Of a stretch of DNA of 64,000 nt, positions 11,442 to 62,535 are shown in pieces. A model generated the notes under the pieces. It saw only the letters and a list, made by a program, of their open reading frames with translations, was not told the DNA's origin and did not search any database. A program made the position numbers and the translations under genes. This DNA comes from Procambarus clarkii. Taxonomy: Eukaryota > Arthropoda > Malacostraca > Decapoda > Cambaridae. The stretch's first letter is position 1. Every line of letters begins with the position of its first letter. The stretch is taken from positions 20,325,082 to 20,389,081 of the forward strand of contig NC_091173.1 of NCBI RefSeq assembly GCF_040958095.1, in the 5' to 3' direction.

Positions 11442-13992
11442 CCAGTACGTCGCCCAGGTGCAGCTGTGCACCGGTCCAACACGTCGCCCAGGTGCAGCTG
11501 TGCACCGGTCCAACACGTCGCCCAGGTGCAGCTGTGCACCGGTCCAACACGTCACCCAGGTGCAGCTGTGCACCGGTCCAACACGTCGCCCAGGTGCAGC
11601 TGTGCACCGGTCCAACACGTCGCCCAGGTGCAGCTGTGCACCGGTCCAACACGTCGCCCAGGTGCAGCTGTGCACCGGTCCATCACGTCACCCATGTGCA
11701 GCTGTGCACCGGTCCAACACGTCGCCCAGGTGCAGCTGTGCACCGGTCCAACACGTCGCCCAGGTGCAGCTGTGCACCGGTCCAACACGTCGCCCAGGTG
11801 CAGCTGTGCACCGGTCCAACACGTCGCCCAGGTGCAGCTGTGCACCGGTCCATCACGTCACCCAGGTGCAGCTGTGCACCGGTCCAACACGTCGCCCAGG
11901 TGCAGCTGTGCACCGGTCCAACACGTCGCCCAGGTGCAGCTGTGCACCGGTCCAACACGTCGCCCAGGTGCAGCTGTGCACCGGTCCAACACGTCGCCCA
12001 GGTGCAGCTGTGCACCGGTCCAACACGTCACCCAGATGCAGCTGTGCACCGGTCCAACACGTCACCCAGGTGCAGCTGTGCACCGGTCCAACACGTCACC
12101 CAGGTGCAGCTGTGCACCGGTCCAACACGTCACCCAGATGCAGCTGTGCACCGGTCCAACACGTCACCCAGGTGCAGCTGTGCACCGGTCCAACACGTCG
12201 CCCAGGTGCAGCTGTGCACCGGTCCAACACGTCACCCAGGTGCAGCTGTGCACCGGTCCAACACGTCACCCAGGTGCAGCTGTGCACCGGTCCAACACGT
12301 CGCCCAGGTGCAGCTGTGCACCGGTCCAACACGTCACCCAGGTGCAGCTGTGCACCGGTCCAACACGTCGCCCAGGTGCAGCTGTGCACCGGTCCATCAC
12401 GTCACCCAGGTGCAGCTGTGCACCGGTCCAACACGTCGCCCAGGTGCAGCTGTGCACCGGTCCAACACGTCGCCCAGGTGCAGCTGTGCACCGGTCCATC
12501 ACGTCACCCAGGTGCAGCTGTGCACCGGTCCAACACGTCGCCCAGGTGCAGCTGTGCACCGGTCCAACACGTCGCCCAGGTGCAGCTGTGCACCGGTCCA
12601 ACACGTCGCCCAGGTGCAGCTGTGCACCGGTCCAACACGTCGCCCAGGTGCAGCTGTGCACCGGTCCAACACGTCGCCCAGGTGCAGCTGTGCACCGGTC
12701 CAACACGTCGCCCAGATGCAGCTGTGCACCGGTCCAACACGTCACCCAGGTGCAGCTGTGCACCGGTCCAACACGTCACCCAGGTGCAGCTGTGCACCGG
12801 TCCAACACGTCACCCAGGTGCAGCTGTGCACCGGTCCAACACGTCGCCCAGGTGCAGCTGTGCACCGGTCCAACACGTCGCCCAGGTGCAGCTGGGTCCA
12901 ACACGTCGCCCAGGTGCAGCTGTGCACCGGTCCAACACGTCGCCCAGGTGCAGCTGTGCACCGGTCCAACACGTCGCCCAGGTGCAGCTGTGCACCGGTC
13001 CAACACGTCACCCAGATGCAGCTGTGCACCGGTCCAACACGTCACCCAGGTGCAGCTGTGCACCGGTCCAACACGTCACCCAGGTGCAGCTGTGCACCGG
13101 TCCAACACGTCACCCAGGTGCAGCTGTGCACCGGTCCAACACGTCACCCAGGTGCAGCTGTGCACCGGTCCAACACGTCGCCCAGGTGCAGCTGTGCACC
13201 GGTCCAACACGTCGCCCAGGTGCAGCTGTGCACCGGTCCAACACGTCGCCCAGGTGCAGCTGTGCACCGGTCCAACACGTCGCCCAGGTGCAGCTGTGCA
13301 CCGGTCCAACACGTCGCCCAGGTGCAGCTGTGCACCGGTCCAACACGTCACCCAGATGCAGCTGTGCACCGGTCCAACACGTCACCCAGGTGCAGCTGTG
13401 CACCGGTCCAACACGTCACCCAGGTGCAGCTGTGCACCGGTCCAACACGTCACCCAGGTGCAGCTGTGCACCGGTCCAACACGTCACCCAGATGCAGCTG
13501 TGCACCGGTCCAACACGTCACCCAGGTGCAGCTGTGCACCGGTCCAACACGTCGCCCAGGTGCAGCTGTGCACCGGTCCAACACGTCACCCAGGTGCAGC
13601 TGTGCACCGGTCCAACACGTCACCCAGGTGCAGCTGTGCACCGGTCCAACACGTCGCCCAGGTGCAGCTGTGCACCGGTCCAACACGTCACCCAGGTGCA
13701 GCTGTGCACCGGTCCAACACGTCACCCAGGTGCAACTGTGCACCGGTCCAACACGTCGCCCAGGTGCAACTGTGCACCGGTCCAACACGTCGCCCAGGTG
13801 CAACTGTGCACCGGTCCAACACGTCGCCCAGGTGCAACTGTGCACCGGTCCAACACGTCACCCAGGTGCAGCTGTGCACCGGTCCAACACGTCGCCCAGG
13901 TGCAGCTGTGCACCGGTCCAACACGTCGCCCAGGTGCAGCTGTGCACCGGTCCAACACGTCACCCAGGTGCAGCTGTGCACCGGTCCAACAC
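11442..13992. repeat. 34-bp minisatellite, about 75 copies
   Basis: The unit reads cagctgtgcaccggtcc followed by aacacgtcgcccaggtg (34 bp). Copies are nearly identical. Variation is concentrated at a few sites: cgtcG/Accc, ccaG/Atg, tccaA/Tcac, and gcaG/Actg in a late cluster (13733-13840). One copy near 12892 has lost 6 bp (tgcacc). Each unit can fold into GGTGCA-GCTG-TGCACC, a 6-bp stem with a tetraloop. Because the unit lacks stops, several frames stay open for about 850 codons, but none begins with ATG, so I do not call a gene. A partial match in the left flank (11409-11430) may be the seed. Confidence 0.97.
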
Positions 13993-28043: not shown

Positions 28044-28235
28044 GCCCTGGTAGCCTGGTGAATAGCGCGCAGGACTCGTAATTCTGTGGCGCGGGTTCGA
28101 TTCCTGCACCAGGCAGAAACAAATGGGCAAAGTTTCTTTCACTCTGAATGCCCCTGTTACCTAGCAGTAAATAGGTACCTGGGAGTTAGTCAGCTGTCAC
28201 GGGCTGCTTCCTAGGGTGTTTGTGTGTGTGTGGTG
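28044..28235 (+). mobile_element. tRNA-Thr-like SINE
   Basis: The A-box-like tagcctggtgaatagcgcgc and the B-box ggttcgattcc stand in tRNA spacing, with cctgg...ccagg acceptor-like ends. The anticodon-like position reads CGT in the loop ctcgtaa, suggesting a tRNA-Thr ancestor. The body carries cctagcagtaaataggtacc and gggctgcttcctagg, repeated at 54.55-54.60 kb. It is followed by a LINE tail. Confidence 0.75.
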
Positions 28236-35679: not shown

Positions 35680-35960
35680 GGGGGATGGATCGATGTCCAG
35701 AGGGCTTCGAAAAGGATGGGGGAGAGGAGGGATGGGGGGATTTACAATTCTGGAAGAGGATGGGGTTTGTGAGTGAGAGGGGGGATGAAAAGTTTGGTGG
35801 CTTGTCCCTCTCGGGTTGGCCTGAGGTGTGTGGGTTTGGGTGGGTGTGGGTTGAGGAAGGTTGTGAGTGCGTCGGTTGGGTTGGCTGGTGTGGGTGTCTT
35901 AGTTGGTGTTCGGATTTCTAGGAGGCGGCGGTGGTGGTGGCTTCAAGAGGCTCATCACAC
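35680..35960. other. G-rich tract
   Basis: Plus strand rich in ggtgtggg-type phrases with no coding motif; a possible acceptor-like tttctag at 35915-35921 is not supported further. Confidence 0.3.
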
Positions 35961-36019
35961 CAACGTCAATGTTGCACTGTTTGCAACACAAAAAATGTTT
36001 TTTTTTTTCGTTTTGTATC

Positions 36020-36145
36020 GAAAAATCTACAGAGAAATGGGAAAGCCGGTGTTAACAACGGCTTTAATTGGCCGAAACGTTCATCTCCCTTTTCCATTTC
36101 TCTGTGGATTTTCCGCATACCAATAATCACTGTTTCGTGATCGCC
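36020..36145. mobile_element. Possible distant relative of the hairpin SINE
   Basis: Arms tctacagagaaatgggaaag and cttttccatttctctgtgga flank an inner loop with cgaaacgttcatctccc, resembling the structure, not the exact sequence, of the hairpin family. The right end cactgtttcgtgatcgcc loosely matches the family's inverted head. Confidence 0.35.

Positions 36146-36151: not shown

Positions 36152-36226
<75 letters not shown>
36152..36226. repeat. (TA)n microsatellite
   Basis: About 75 bp of TA just outside the left flank of the large palindrome. Confidence 0.97.
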
Positions 36227-36228
<2 letters not shown>

Positions 36229-36310
36229 CCACATACTGAGCGGACTGACACAATACCCACAAGAGTGGACCTTCTCTGACCCGATTTATACAATATATAT
36301 ATATATATAT

Positions 36311-37684
36311 GCGAACAAGCCTGAATGGTCCCCAGGACATATGCAACTGAAAACTCACACCCCAGAAGTGACTCGAACCCATACTCCCAGAAGCAACGCA
36401 TCTGGTATGTACAAGACGCCTTAATCCACTTGACCATCACGACCGGACAAAATGAGGTGATAGCCGAGGCTATTTGAACCACCCCACCGCCGGCACTCGG
36501 ATAGTTATCTTGGGCATAGCATTTTACCAAATCACCTCATTCTTTGGGGCAACACGTGAGGAACACAAATGCGAACAAGCCTGAATGGTCCCCAGGACAT
36601 ATGCAACTGAAAACTCACACCCCAGAAGTGACTCGAACCCATACTCCCAGAAGCAACGCATCTGGTATGTACAAGACGCCTTAATCCACTTGACCATCAC
36701 GACCGGACAAAATGAGGTGATAGCCGAGGCTATTTGAACCACCCCACCGCCGGCACTCGGATAGTTATCTTGGGCATAGCATTTTACCAAATCACCTCAT
36801 TCTTTGGGGCAACACGTGAGGAACACAAATGCGAACAAGCCTGAATGGTCCCCAGGACATATGCAACTGAAAACTCACACCCCAGAAGTGACTCGAACCC
36901 ATACTCCCAGAAGCAACGCATCTGGTATGTACAAGACGCCTTAATCCACTTGACCATCACGACCGGACAAAATGAGGTGATAGCCGAGGCTATTTGAACC
37001 ACCCCACCGCCGGCACTCGGATAGTTATCTTGGGCATAGCATTTTACCAAATCACCTCATTCTTTGGGGCAACACGTGAGGAACACAAATGCGAACAAGC
37101 CTGAATGGTCCCCAGGACATATGCAACTGAAAACTCACACCCCAGAAGTGACTCGAACCCATACTCCCAGAAGCAACGCATCTGGTATGTACAAGACGCC
37201 TTAATCCACTTGACCATCACGACCGGACAAAATGAGGTGATAGCCGAGGCTATTTGAACCACCCCACCGCCGGCACTCGGATAGTTATCTTGGGCATAGC
37301 ATTTTACCAAATCACCTCATTCTTTGGGGCAACACGTGAGGAACACAAATGCGAACAAGCCTGAATGGTCCCCAGGACATATGCAACTGAAAACTCACAC
37401 CCCAGAAGTGACTCGAACCCATACTCCCAGAAGCAACGCATCTGGTATGTACAAGACGCCTTAATCCACTTGACCATCACGACCGGACAAAATGAGGTGA
37501 TAGCCGAGGCTATTTGAACCACCCCACCGCCGGCACTCGGATAGTTATCTTGGGCATAGCATTTTACCAAATCACCTCATTCTTTGGGGCAACACGTGAG
37601 GAACACAAATGCGAACAAGCCTGAATGGTCCCCAGGACATATGCAACTGAAAACTCACACCCCAGAAGTGACTCGAACCCATAC
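36311..37684 (-). repeat. Tandem 260-bp units, left arm
   Basis: Units repeat every 260 bp and appear identical in every full copy read. Each carries, on the minus strand, the tRNA-Leu-like module described for the right arm. The frame of about 88 codons in each unit opens on TTG and shifts between units because 260 is not a multiple of three, so it is not a gene. Confidence 0.95.
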
Positions 37685-39670
37685 ACTCGGATAACTATCC
37701 GAGTGCCGGCGGTGGGGTGGTTCAAATAGCCTCGGCTATCACCTCATTTTGTCCGGTCGTGATGGTCAAGTGGATTAAGGCGTCTTGTACATACCAGATG
37801 CGTTGCTTCTGGGAGTATGGGTTCGAGTCACTTCTGGGGTGTGAGTTTTCAGTTGCATATGTCCTGGGGACCATTCAGGCTTGTTCGCATTTGTGTTCCT
37901 CACGTGTTGCCCCAAAGAATGAGGTGATTTGGTAAAATGCTATGCCCAAGATAACTATCCGAGTGCCGGCGGTGGGGTGGTTCAAATAGCCTCGGCTATC
38001 ACCTCATTTTGTCCGGTCGTGATGGTCAAGTGGATTAAGGCGTCTTGTACATACCAGATGCGTTGCTTCTGGGAGTATGGGTTCGAGTCACTTCTGGGGT
38101 GTGAGTTTTCAGTTGCATATGTCCTGGGGACCATTCAGGCTTGTTCGCATTTGTGTTCCTCACGTGTTGCCCCAAAGAATGAGGTGATTTGGTAAAATGC
38201 TATGCCCAAGATAACTATCCGAGTGCCGGCGGTGGGGTGGTTCAAATAGCCTCGGCTATCACCTCATTTTGTCCGGTCGTGATGGTCAAGTGGATTAAGG
38301 CGTCTTGTACATACCAGATGCGTTGCTTCTGGGAGTATGGGTTCGAGTCACTTCTGGGGTGTGAGTTTTCAGTTGCATATGTCCTGGGGACCATTCAGGC
38401 TTGTTCGCATTTGTGTTCCTCACGTGTTGCCCCAAAGAATGAGGTGATTTGGTAAAATGCTATGCCCAAGATAACTATCCGAGTGCCGGCGGTGGGGTGG
38501 TTCAAATAGCCTCGGCTATCACCTCATTTTGTCCGGTCGTGATGGTCAAGTGGATTAAGGCGTCTTGTACATACCAGATGCGTTGCTTCTGGGAGTATGG
38601 GTTCGAGTCACTTCTGGGGTGTGAGTTTTCAGTTGCATATGTCCTGGGGACCATTCAGGCTTGTTCGCATTTGTGTTCCTCACGTGTTGCCCCAAAGAAT
38701 GAGGTGATTTGGTAAAATGCTATGCCCAAGATAACTATCCGAGTGCCGGCGGTGGGGTGGTTCAAATAGCCTCGGCTATCACCTCATTTTGTCCGGTCGT
38801 GATGGTCAAGTGGATTAAGGCGTCTTGTACATACCAGATGCGTTGCTTCTGGGAGTATGGGTTCGAGTCACTTCTGGGGTGTGAGTTTTCAGTTGCATAT
38901 GTCCTGGGGACCATTCAGGCTTGTTCGCATTTGTGTTCCTCACGTGTTGCCCCAAAGAATGAGGTGATTTGGTAAAATGCTATGCCCAAGATAACTATCC
39001 GAGTGCCGGCGGTGGGGTGGTTCAAATAGCCTCGGCTATCACCTCATTTTGTCCGGTCGTGATGGTCAAGTGGATTAAGGCGTCTTGTACATACCAGATG
39101 CGTTGCTTCTGGGAGTATGGGTTCGAGTCACTTCTGGGGTGTGAGTTTTCAGTTGCATATGTCCTGGGGACCATTCAGGCTTGTTCGCATTTGTGTTCCT
39201 CACGTGTTGCCCCAAAGAATGAGGTGATTTGGTAAAATGCTATGCCCAAGATAACTATCCGAGTGCCGGCGGTGGGGTGGTTCAAATAGCCTCGGCTATC
39301 ACCTCATTTTGTCCGGTCGTGATGGTCAAGTGGATTAAGGCGTCTTGTACATACCAGATGCGTTGCTTCTGGGAGTATGGGTTCGAGTCACTTCTGGGGT
39401 GTGAGTTTTCAGTTGCATATGTCCTGGGGACCATTCAGGCTTGTTCGCATTTGTGTTCCTCACGTGTTGCCCCAAAGAATGAGGTGATTTGGTAAAATGC
39501 TATGCCCAAGATAACTATCCGAGTGCCGGCGGTGGGGTGGTTCAAATAGCCTCGGCTATCACCTCATTTTGTCCGGTCGTGATGGTCAAGTGGATTAAGG
39601 CGTCTTGTACATACCAGATGCGTTGCTTCTGGGAGTATGGGTTCGAGTCACTTCTGGGGTGTGAGTTTTC

Positions 39671-39672
<2 letters not shown>
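37685..39672 (+). repeat. Tandem 260-bp units, right arm, with Pol III-type modules
   Basis: Seven to eight identical units. Each has a perfect A-box (TGGTCAAGTGG, first at 37763) and B-box (GTTCGAGTC, first at 37821), 58 bp apart as in class II (Leu/Ser) tRNAs, then TTTT in gagttttcag about 35 nt later, a possible Pol III terminator. Acceptor- and T-stem pairing is poor, so these are tRNA-Leu-derived SINE-type units, not working tRNA genes. The last unit ends abruptly at (TA)n. Confidence 0.9.
37756..37856 (+). ncRNA. Representative tRNA-Leu-like Pol III unit (repeated in each copy)
   Basis: The proposed transcript runs from the gtcgtga acceptor-like 5' end through the A-box and a long variable region to the T-run. 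A potential RNA of about 100 nt would come from each of roughly 13 copies on the two arms. Expression is untested. Confidence 0.35.
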
Positions 39673-39747
<75 letters not shown>

Positions 39748-39811
39748 CAATTAAAATACATACATAAAATCAAAAATATATATATATACAATATATATAT
39801 ATATATATATT
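39673..39811. repeat. (TA)n arrays at the right shoulder of the palindrome
   Basis: About 70 bp of TA, a short AT-rich spacer (39744-39772), and a second TA run that continues into the inverted flank. Confidence 0.95.
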
Positions 39812-39954
39812 GTATAAATCGGGTCAGAGAAGGTCCACTCTTGTGGGTATTGTGTCAGTCCGCTCAGTATGTGGGGTCTCGGGAAGGTCTGGTGGTCGTG
39901 GATGCGTCTGATCACTGGTCGTTGAAGAGTAGCTTGAAGAAGAAGAAGTGGTAG

Positions 39955-41420: not shown

Positions 41421-41425
<5 letters not shown>

Positions 41426-41804
41426 GTACCTAGTAGCCAGAACGCACTTCTCGGCCTACTATGCAAGGCCCGATTTGCCTAATAAGCCAAGTTTACTGAA
41501 TTAATATATTTTTTCTCTAATTTTTTTCTTATGAAATGATAGAGCTACCCATTTCATTATTTATGAGGTCAATTTTTTTTTATTGGAGTTAAAATTAACG
41601 TAGATATATGACCGAACCTAACAAACCCTACCTAACCTAACCTATCTTTATTGGTTAGGTTAGGTTAGGTAGCCGAAAAAGTTAGGTTAGGTTAGGTTAG
41701 GTAGGTTAGGTAGTCGAAAAACAATTAATTCATGAAAACTTGGCTTATTAGGCAAATTGGGCTTTGCATAGTAGGCTGAGAAGTGCGTTCTGGCTACTAG
41801 GTAC

Positions 41805-41809
<5 letters not shown>
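41421..41809. mobile_element. MITE with 74-bp terminal inverted repeats and TTAGG core
   Basis: The left terminus (atgtcgtacctagtagccag, 41421-41494) is the reverse complement of the right (41736-41809) with about three mismatches in 74 bp. The core holds a hairpin of (CCTAA)n at 41626-41645 against (TTAGG)n at 41653-41672 and further ttaggttagg runs. The element sits inside (TA)n on both sides, consistent with TA-targeted insertion. It has no coding capacity. A diverged terminus of the same family lies at 50.57-50.63 kb. Confidence 0.9.
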
Positions 41810-62374: not shown

Positions 62375-62535
62375 ATTGAGTGTCTGTGGTGGCGTGGCGG
62401 GTTAAGGCGCGCGTCTGGTAGTCACTGTGATGATGGTTCGAATCCCCGCACGGCTGGTTACCTGGTTGATGGGGTTCTGGGAGTTCTTCTACTCCCCAAG
62501 CCCGGCCCGAGACCAGGCTTGACTTTATGGCTCCA
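62375..62535 (+). mobile_element. tRNA-like SINE fused to LINE-terminus sequence
   Basis: An A-box-like tggcgggttaaggcgcgcg and B-box ggttcgaatcc define the head. The body, from ggggttctgggagttcttct to ggcccgagaccaggcttgac, matches 59578-59632, which lies on the antisense strand of the LINE at 59.3 kb. Confidence 0.7.

Follow-up and report, generated by a model that had tools for sequence, protein, structure and literature searches.

The window analysed here, a stretch of 64,000 nucleotides from the crayfish Procambarus clarkii (G000:C24:20325082-20389081, in an assembly of 4.03 Gb and 2,308 contigs), contains a palindrome built of 260-bp tandem units in two arms that stand head-to-head. It is an ordinary member of an extraordinary repeat family and not a one-off. 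Across this family, the palindrome most likely forms anew with each insertion, because the head-to-head order is common (8 of 13 clusters of junctions), the turnarounds between the arms are different in 24 of 24 loci, and 28 of 30 paired array ends combine one long with one short end. The same three observations leave unsupported an earlier proposal that a tandem array came first and was later duplicated in inverted orientation. We favor, with a probability of about 0.58, a reading in which the palindrome is made in a single insertion, by an enzyme, probably of the Penelope type, that cuts both strands of a TA tract and copies one RNA from both ends.

In the assembly, Tandem Repeats Finder (TRF) and self-comparison resolve 5.29 copies of the unit in the left arm and 7.63 in the right. 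Neighboring units show zero mismatches, the unit sequence is the same in both arms, and the inverted match of the two arms runs over 1,383 bp at 100%. A first description of this DNA, made by a model from the letters alone (the sequence-only reading), had reported about 13 identical 260-bp units in two opposite arms of 5.3 and 7.6 copies, with a turnaround at 37685. Both statements are borne out in the assembly, where the join occupies 37685-37693. That description overlooked that the two outer ends of the palindrome differ in kind, one being long and the other short, and that such structures are found again elsewhere in the genome. The turnaround of the window is a copied-back piece located at GATAACTATC, a short palindrome within the unit itself. 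The 30-mer of the turnaround has a single occurrence in the genome with up to 2 mismatches permitted.

A genome-wide family with two end types

The exact unit-unit junction occurs 87,424 times in the genome (44,080 and 43,344). These junctions alone account for at least ~22.7 Mb (87,424 x 260 bp), or 0.56% of the assembly. The first 100 listed junctions (C1, 0.9-5.8 Mb) form 13 clusters, of which the eight mentioned above run minus-then-plus (head-to-head) and none runs plus-then-minus (tail-to-tail). One array at G000:C1:909014-915281 has 22 exact junctions, all in one direction, and no exact end among those listed.

Where an array meets (AT)n, its unit breaks off at one of two fixed sites, positions 224 (short) and 260 (long), which lie 36 nt apart. 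The long end, ..TTCGCAT followed by (AT)n, has 13,495 exact occurrences (6,634 on the plus strand and 6,861 on the minus strand). The short end, mostly ..GTTTTCAGTT followed by (AT)n, has 6,947 on the plus strand, the commonest listed form being ..CAGTT followed by (AT)n; the corresponding minus-strand figure, 19,591, counts a single end up to four times. On the plus strand, long and short ends stand at about 1:1.

The long ends used to evaluate pairing were those located no farther than 23.95 Mb, 62 of the 100 on the list; the short ends numbered 58 once 100 rows had been collapsed to distinct ends. Between 0.90 and 23.95 Mb of C1, there are 39 pairs of neighboring ends no more than 8 kb apart, and 30 of these are minus/plus, as compared with a chance mean of 1.2 and a maximum of 5 in 2,000. 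These 30 comprise 13 long-short, 15 short-long, two long-long and no short-short pairs, so that 28 are unlike; independent drawing of end types would make about half of the pairs alike. In the same region, three short/long arrays (G000:C1:12351135, 12355297 and 12359676) are spaced at intervals of 4.2-4.4 kb; they probably belong to a larger tandem duplication, with the array as part of the duplicated segment.

Turnarounds and arms of individual loci

Fifteen of the 28 long/short pairs, the smaller ones, were fetched (L043-L057), and every one has exactly one head-to-head turnaround between its ends, down to the smallest arms of 58 and 25 bp (L056). More fragments lie past the TA tract in L044 and L057, and a non-aligning stretch is found within an arm of L049 and L052. 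The same build is shared by L030, L032 and L034-L038, with L032 being long/long, while L033 is an older array joined to a single unit of another subfamily. Among 20 stretches of 10 kb taken by place, L019 has one arm of ~5 units with, by eye, a short inverted stub.

The 24 turnarounds, all different, were tabulated with L019 and L039-L042 excluded. Their positions do not deviate from a uniform distribution along the unit (Kolmogorov-Smirnov p 0.66 and 0.57), and the joins have 0-11 nt of overlap or an insert of 1-20 nt, as bounded by BLAST. Such diversity bears directly on whether the family could be a foldback DNA transposon such as Tetris of Drosophila virilis, in which a transposase moves arms that are long terminal inverted repeats (TIRs) holding internal tandem repeats. 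Tetris does provide a precedent for inverted tandem-repeat arms of like size (~220 bp), for dispersed copies and for growth into satellites (PMC4079207). Copies moved as DNA should, however, inherit their turnaround, which is private in every locus compared and, for the window, single in the genome; nor does the foldback explanation sit well with the unlike ends of the 28 pairs, and we consider it improbable.

Twin priming, in which a LINE-1-type enzyme (LINE, long interspersed element) leaves a 3' segment with a fixed end together with an inverted 5' segment, is another way to obtain opposed arms. It would account for one arm with a fixed 3' end, and for joins with microhomology or small inserts. 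The outer end of the inverted segment should then vary. In the crayfish arrays this end mostly falls at one place, the short site, at a distance of 36 nt from the long site, which makes twin priming an unlikely origin.

The two arms of a locus tend to match each other more closely than they match other arms. Comparison was made for 23 loci, from which L019 and L053 were dropped as having too short an arm (L039-L042, L056 and L057 were not entered), and in 15 of the 21 loci with two usable arms the opposite arm of the same locus is the best or tied-best match. Mean arm-to-arm identity is 0.990 vs a permuted maximum of 0.981, with none of 5,000 permutations reaching the observed value. At the level of the unit, identity is 0.97-1.00 within an array and 0.90-0.996 between arrays (12 loci).

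Flanking DNA

At or near both outer ends, (AT)n is present in 26 of 28 tabulated loci, many of which were found via patterns that require (AT)n. With L042 skipped, 16 of the 28 have at least 40 non-TA bases on both sides, and flanks that match in inverted orientation occur in two of these 16, the window and L032. The flanks of L032 are the two ends of a Penelope-like element, facing each other, and on that account L032 was dropped as an instance of the same inverted flank duplication as in the window. Since 14 of 16 loci have no inverted flanks and the L032 pair consists of Penelope-like ends, inverted flanks are not part of the structure.

The window is the remaining case. The sequence-only reading had described 67-bp matched inverted flanks and (TA)n shoulders. 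The flanks are there and are identical, but the match is 85/85 bp long and extends into (AT)n; likewise the left shoulder is (AT)n (37.5 copies), but the right one includes ~33 non-TA bases. Nor do these flanks look like TIRs: they resemble a further copy, in inverted orientation, of an older repeat split by the array. The 85-bp flank is found at no fewer than six other places in the genome, at 81-84% identity and within an older dispersed repeat. In a relative of the flank, L023, the upstream half of this repeat continues straight into the downstream half, and the two halves present in the window abut in the L023 query; a third piece (query 150-217) aligns to ~36226-36293 on the plus strand (BLASTN). 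L024 and L027 align to the window as L023 does. Because L023 aligns in two abutting halves plus a third piece, the window holds one older repeat copy split by insertion, with one extra inverted piece. Each arm appears to be attached to a copy of the right-hand flank; cutting of two sister molecules could leave such an arrangement, and so could a templated insertion.

Two candidate identities for these flanks were set aside. The 67/85-bp inverted flank as the TIR of a foldback family was dropped in view of the diverged copies elsewhere, all within the older repeat, and of the arrangement as one split copy plus an inverted extra. The split repeat as the 3' end of a LINE, suggested by translation, found no Pfam match in the pieces tried. 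Between the split older repeat and the left (AT)n there is also an imperfect inverted repeat with 35-bp arms (86%, window 36012-36123) that is like a miniature inverted-repeat transposable element (MITE).

The inverted, identical 85-bp flank would be explained if single arrays underwent inverted duplication at the DNA level, through template switching and fragile TA tracts, and the position of the window's turnaround on a short palindrome would fit as well. That process, however, predicts equal outer ends and inverted flanks generally. Inverted flanks are confined to two of the 16 loci, one of them owing to the facing Penelope-like ends, and the long/short pairing is also contrary, so that inverted duplication seems rather unlikely. 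Assembly artefact from fold-back reads also deserves mention, as palindromes of tandem repeats are hard to assemble and the structure is known here from the assembly alone. A fold-back read would give the same end on both sides, contrary to the 28 unlike pairs, and in 14 of the 16 loci tested no inverted match links the flanks past the TA tracts; an artefact is thus highly improbable. Inherited TIRs, a later inverted duplication and a fold-back read are all disfavored because they do not predict paired unlike ends, private turnarounds and variants shared between the arms of a locus.

The 260-bp unit

Each unit carries two motifs that, by their consensus, we take to be the A box and the B box of RNA polymerase III (Pol III). 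They lie 57 bases apart, start to start, with a TTTT run 16 nt past the B box. In a first-order Markov simulation of the unit, 30 of 200,000 trials gave a comparable pair of boxes by chance, and the letters of the window unit are unaltered in 20 of 23 loci for the A box and in 21 of 23 for the B box. These boxes make the unit similar to a short interspersed element (SINE), and the earlier view of a tandem array in inverted arms, whose unit has tRNA-type Pol III boxes, is supported. The short Pol III RNAs and the double-stranded RNA that this view envisaged are putative products. Its label 'tRNA-Leu-like' fares differently, as only the two boxes stand behind it: ARAGORN (default settings) and Rfam detect no tRNA cloverleaf in the unit, the Rfam tRNA model having no match up to E 10 on 121 bp of the unit. 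An old SINE can lose its tRNA-like fold.

The 36 nt that separate the short from the long end site are referred to here as the tail. Elsewhere in the fetched DNA that was searched, tail-like sequence is found only in a second SINE-like repeat (L009), which has the same 3' part. This second repeat lies beside (AT)n at L009:908-983 (82%), L042:1738-1813 and L057:413-465. The 3' part common to the unit and the second repeat may be a shared recognition region.

A candidate Penelope-like partner

The enzyme must come from elsewhere, because a 260-bp unit is too short to encode one. A candidate that could supply it in trans is a Penelope-like element, also of this genome, whose endonuclease is of the GIY-YIG type and which has its end at (TA)n. 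One such element, L058, has a GIY-YIG-like core (PF01541, E 0.0015 for a 51-aa part, below the curated cut-off). Among 26 relatives of L058, PF26215 is frequent, PF00078 is found in P0011, and PF01541 is found in P0009 and P0016. A downstream frame starting MSFGELLF (start codon presumed) stops after 40 codons (~120 nt) at (AT)n in L032, and the end of this frame at (AT)n has 1,424 occurrences on the plus strand. In the C1 stretch, three of 12 such Penelope-like ends are no more than 150 bp from an array end on the list (0.015 by chance), and a fourth adjoins a variant short end of L038. In the case of L030, a single instance judged by eye, the Penelope-like element continues for ~32 nt before (AT)n, an extension that could be the element's own tail. 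In both Procambarus species covered by a survey, Penelope and SINE copies of low divergence are reported to be more numerous (PMC10454600).

Features of the window

The coordinates of the palindrome and its surroundings are collected in Table 1. Elsewhere in the window, an element of ~386 bp at 41423-41808 has inverted ends of ~90 bp, TTAGG-like inner repeats and (TA)n on both sides, and looks like a TA-target MITE. Its end (GTCGTACCTAGTAGCCAG..) also adjoins (TA)n in L019, L034, L038, L046 and L056, as judged by eye. A 34-bp minisatellite of 75 copies, 97% alike (TRF), occupies 11447-13992. A tRNA-Thr(CGT) call at 28045-28115, beside a (CA)39 tract, and a further pair of A and B boxes near 62390 are likely other SINEs.

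Table 1. Features of the palindrome and its flanks, in window positions; a slash marks the point of the join or end
Feature	Position	Strand	Basis or remark
Downstream half of split older dispersed repeat	35692..36005	-	BLASTN, L023 query 216-544 to ~36004-35692, 71%
Left (AT)n shoulder, 37.5 copies	36152..36226	.	TRF
Extra inverted copy of right flank	36226..36310	+	85/85 bp; L023 query 150-217 also aligns here
Left arm, 5.29 units of 260 bp	36309..37684	-	Outer end of long type, ..TTCGCAT/(AT)n read on the minus strand
Turnaround (head-to-head join)	37685..37693	.	ACTCGGATA/ACTATCCGAGT; ACTCGGATA copied back
Right arm, 7.63 units of 260 bp	37690..39672	+	Outer end of short type, ..GAGTTTTCAG/(AT)n
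A-box-like TGGTCAAGTGG	37763..37773	+	First complete copy of right arm; recurs every 260 bp
B-box-like GGTTCGAGTC	37820..37829	+	Sequence match
TTTT run, possible Pol III stop	37846..37849	+	Sequence
Tail, 36 nt separating short from long end site	37855..37890	+	Ends compared: L030, L034-L038, L043-L057
Right AT-rich shoulder, including ~33 non-TA-repeat bases (~39744-39776)	39673..39810	.	Sequence, TRF
Original of 85-bp flank	39793..39877	-	Self-comparison, 85/85 bp to 36226-36310
Upstream half of split older repeat	39810..39930	-	L023 query 100-217 to 39930-39810, 83%

Proposed mechanism of formation

The insertion that we favor would begin with the cutting of both strands of a TA tract, after which both cut ends would prime reverse transcription, making the process a two-sided, target-primed one. 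Both cut ends would use the same RNA, one priming at its long site and its counterpart at the short site. The two complementary DNA arms would then run towards each other and be joined head-to-head by end joining, with microhomology or short inserts. The template probably is not a transcript that ends at the TTTT of one unit, because the arms pass through many TTTT runs; it may instead be a 260-nt circle or a multimer. A target-site duplication would be indistinguishable inside (TA)n. More tentatively, and at somewhat less than even odds, we suggest that a SINE-like RNA with Pol III boxes is a client of a Penelope enzyme, and that long and short starts on one circular 260-nt RNA would give a rolling-circle, palindromic satellite in one step.

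Several observations weigh against this mechanism or narrow its basis. Of the 13 clusters from the first 100 listed junctions, five have one strand only. Four of these five were fetched (L039-L042): L039 and L041 have one arm only, and each also has one side without (TA)n; L040 has one arm and, by eye, a tiny inverted stub; and L042 is a patchwork. For six of the 21 loci the best match is an arm other than the opposite one, clearly in L033 and L049 and narrowly in L032, L043, L045 and L047, and not every array need therefore stem from one RNA. The end lists give the first places of the genome only and the pairing comes from one chromosome (C1), while the TA setting of L043-L057 follows from the choice of pattern, as the end searches required (AT)n. 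With regard to the partner, the GIY-YIG match is weak, Pfam returning none for the 214-aa frame of L058 or for a 124-aa part of it; the unit's tail was not matched in the Penelope-like pieces at hand; and Penelope-like ends may be near array ends simply because both have TA tracts as targets. No hammerhead ribozyme was found in the unit, either with Rfam or with a relaxed core search. Finally, the 85-bp inverted flank of the window is left unexplained by two-sided priming.

If the rolling-circle reading is true, the thousands of long and short ends of this genome would be a natural record of how Penelope integration works. The in vitro work of 2024 on a Penelope-like element describes two start sites and extension of both strands, with later steps yet to be validated (PMC11167929). 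Thousands of ends, with one long and one short in 28 of 30 pairs, together with private turnarounds would amount to a statistical record of the integration steps, namely one start site per strand and end joining. They also point to retrotransposition, and not unequal exchange, as a way in which a satellite could arise tandem and palindromic from the outset and already dispersed.

Comparison with known systems

Six strings of the repeat that were searched in papers gave no match, and neither SINE arrays of this kind nor Penelope-mobilized SINEs were found among the papers listed from an open-license library. The closest parallels in integration come from Penelope-like elements. In vitro, the element of the green anole acts on an AT-rich target, of which it cuts and extends both strands. 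Reverse transcription starts at two adjacent internal sites, most commonly 111-118 bp inside the reading frame; what lies between the two start sites is the 30-40-bp 'tail' of genomic copies, and hammerhead mutants leave insertion in vitro unaffected (PMC11167929). In rotifers, the tail is optional on one inverted end, and the head-to-head arrangement is the most frequent, with palindromic joins (PMC3846280). The crayfish repeat shares with these elements the AT-rich target, the mostly head-to-head inverted and tandem arrangement, and the optional tail of 30-40 nt on one end (here 36 nt). Two adjacent internal starts and the cutting and extension of both strands, known from the published work, would be further likenesses. 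It differs from them in that its unit is too short for a reverse transcriptase or an endonuclease, has Pol III-type boxes, forms arms of many units, and has no detected hammerhead, which is reported in the Penelope-like elements. The Penelope-like frame is roughly 800 aa (PMC3846280), and a 260-bp unit cannot hold its own reverse transcriptase and GIY-YIG endonuclease. The repeat is thus classed as working like a Penelope-like element, not as being one.

Animal retrozymes similarly consist of short units (~170-400 nt) arranged in tandem, and both linear and circular RNAs are expressed from them (PMC7229834). A self-cleaving hammerhead in each unit is defining for retrozymes, whereas none was found here, and the parts of that source on which we draw do not mention head-to-head arms with unlike ends. 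With Tetris and other foldback elements the crayfish repeat shares the inverted arms of tandem repeats and the growth into satellites (PMC4079207), and it differs in that its turnarounds are new in each copy read and its ends are unlike. SINE-derived satellites, such as Hy/Pol III of Hydromantes and Satellite 1 of Xenopus, are likewise tandem repeats from a tRNA-related region (PMC9659126). Unlike these, the crayfish arrays are scattered through the genome, have two arms and lie in TA tracts, and inverted arms go unmentioned in the parts of that source used here. While meeting no single known definition fully, the crayfish repeat has its nearest relations in Penelope-like integration, retrozymes, foldback elements and SINE-derived satellites.

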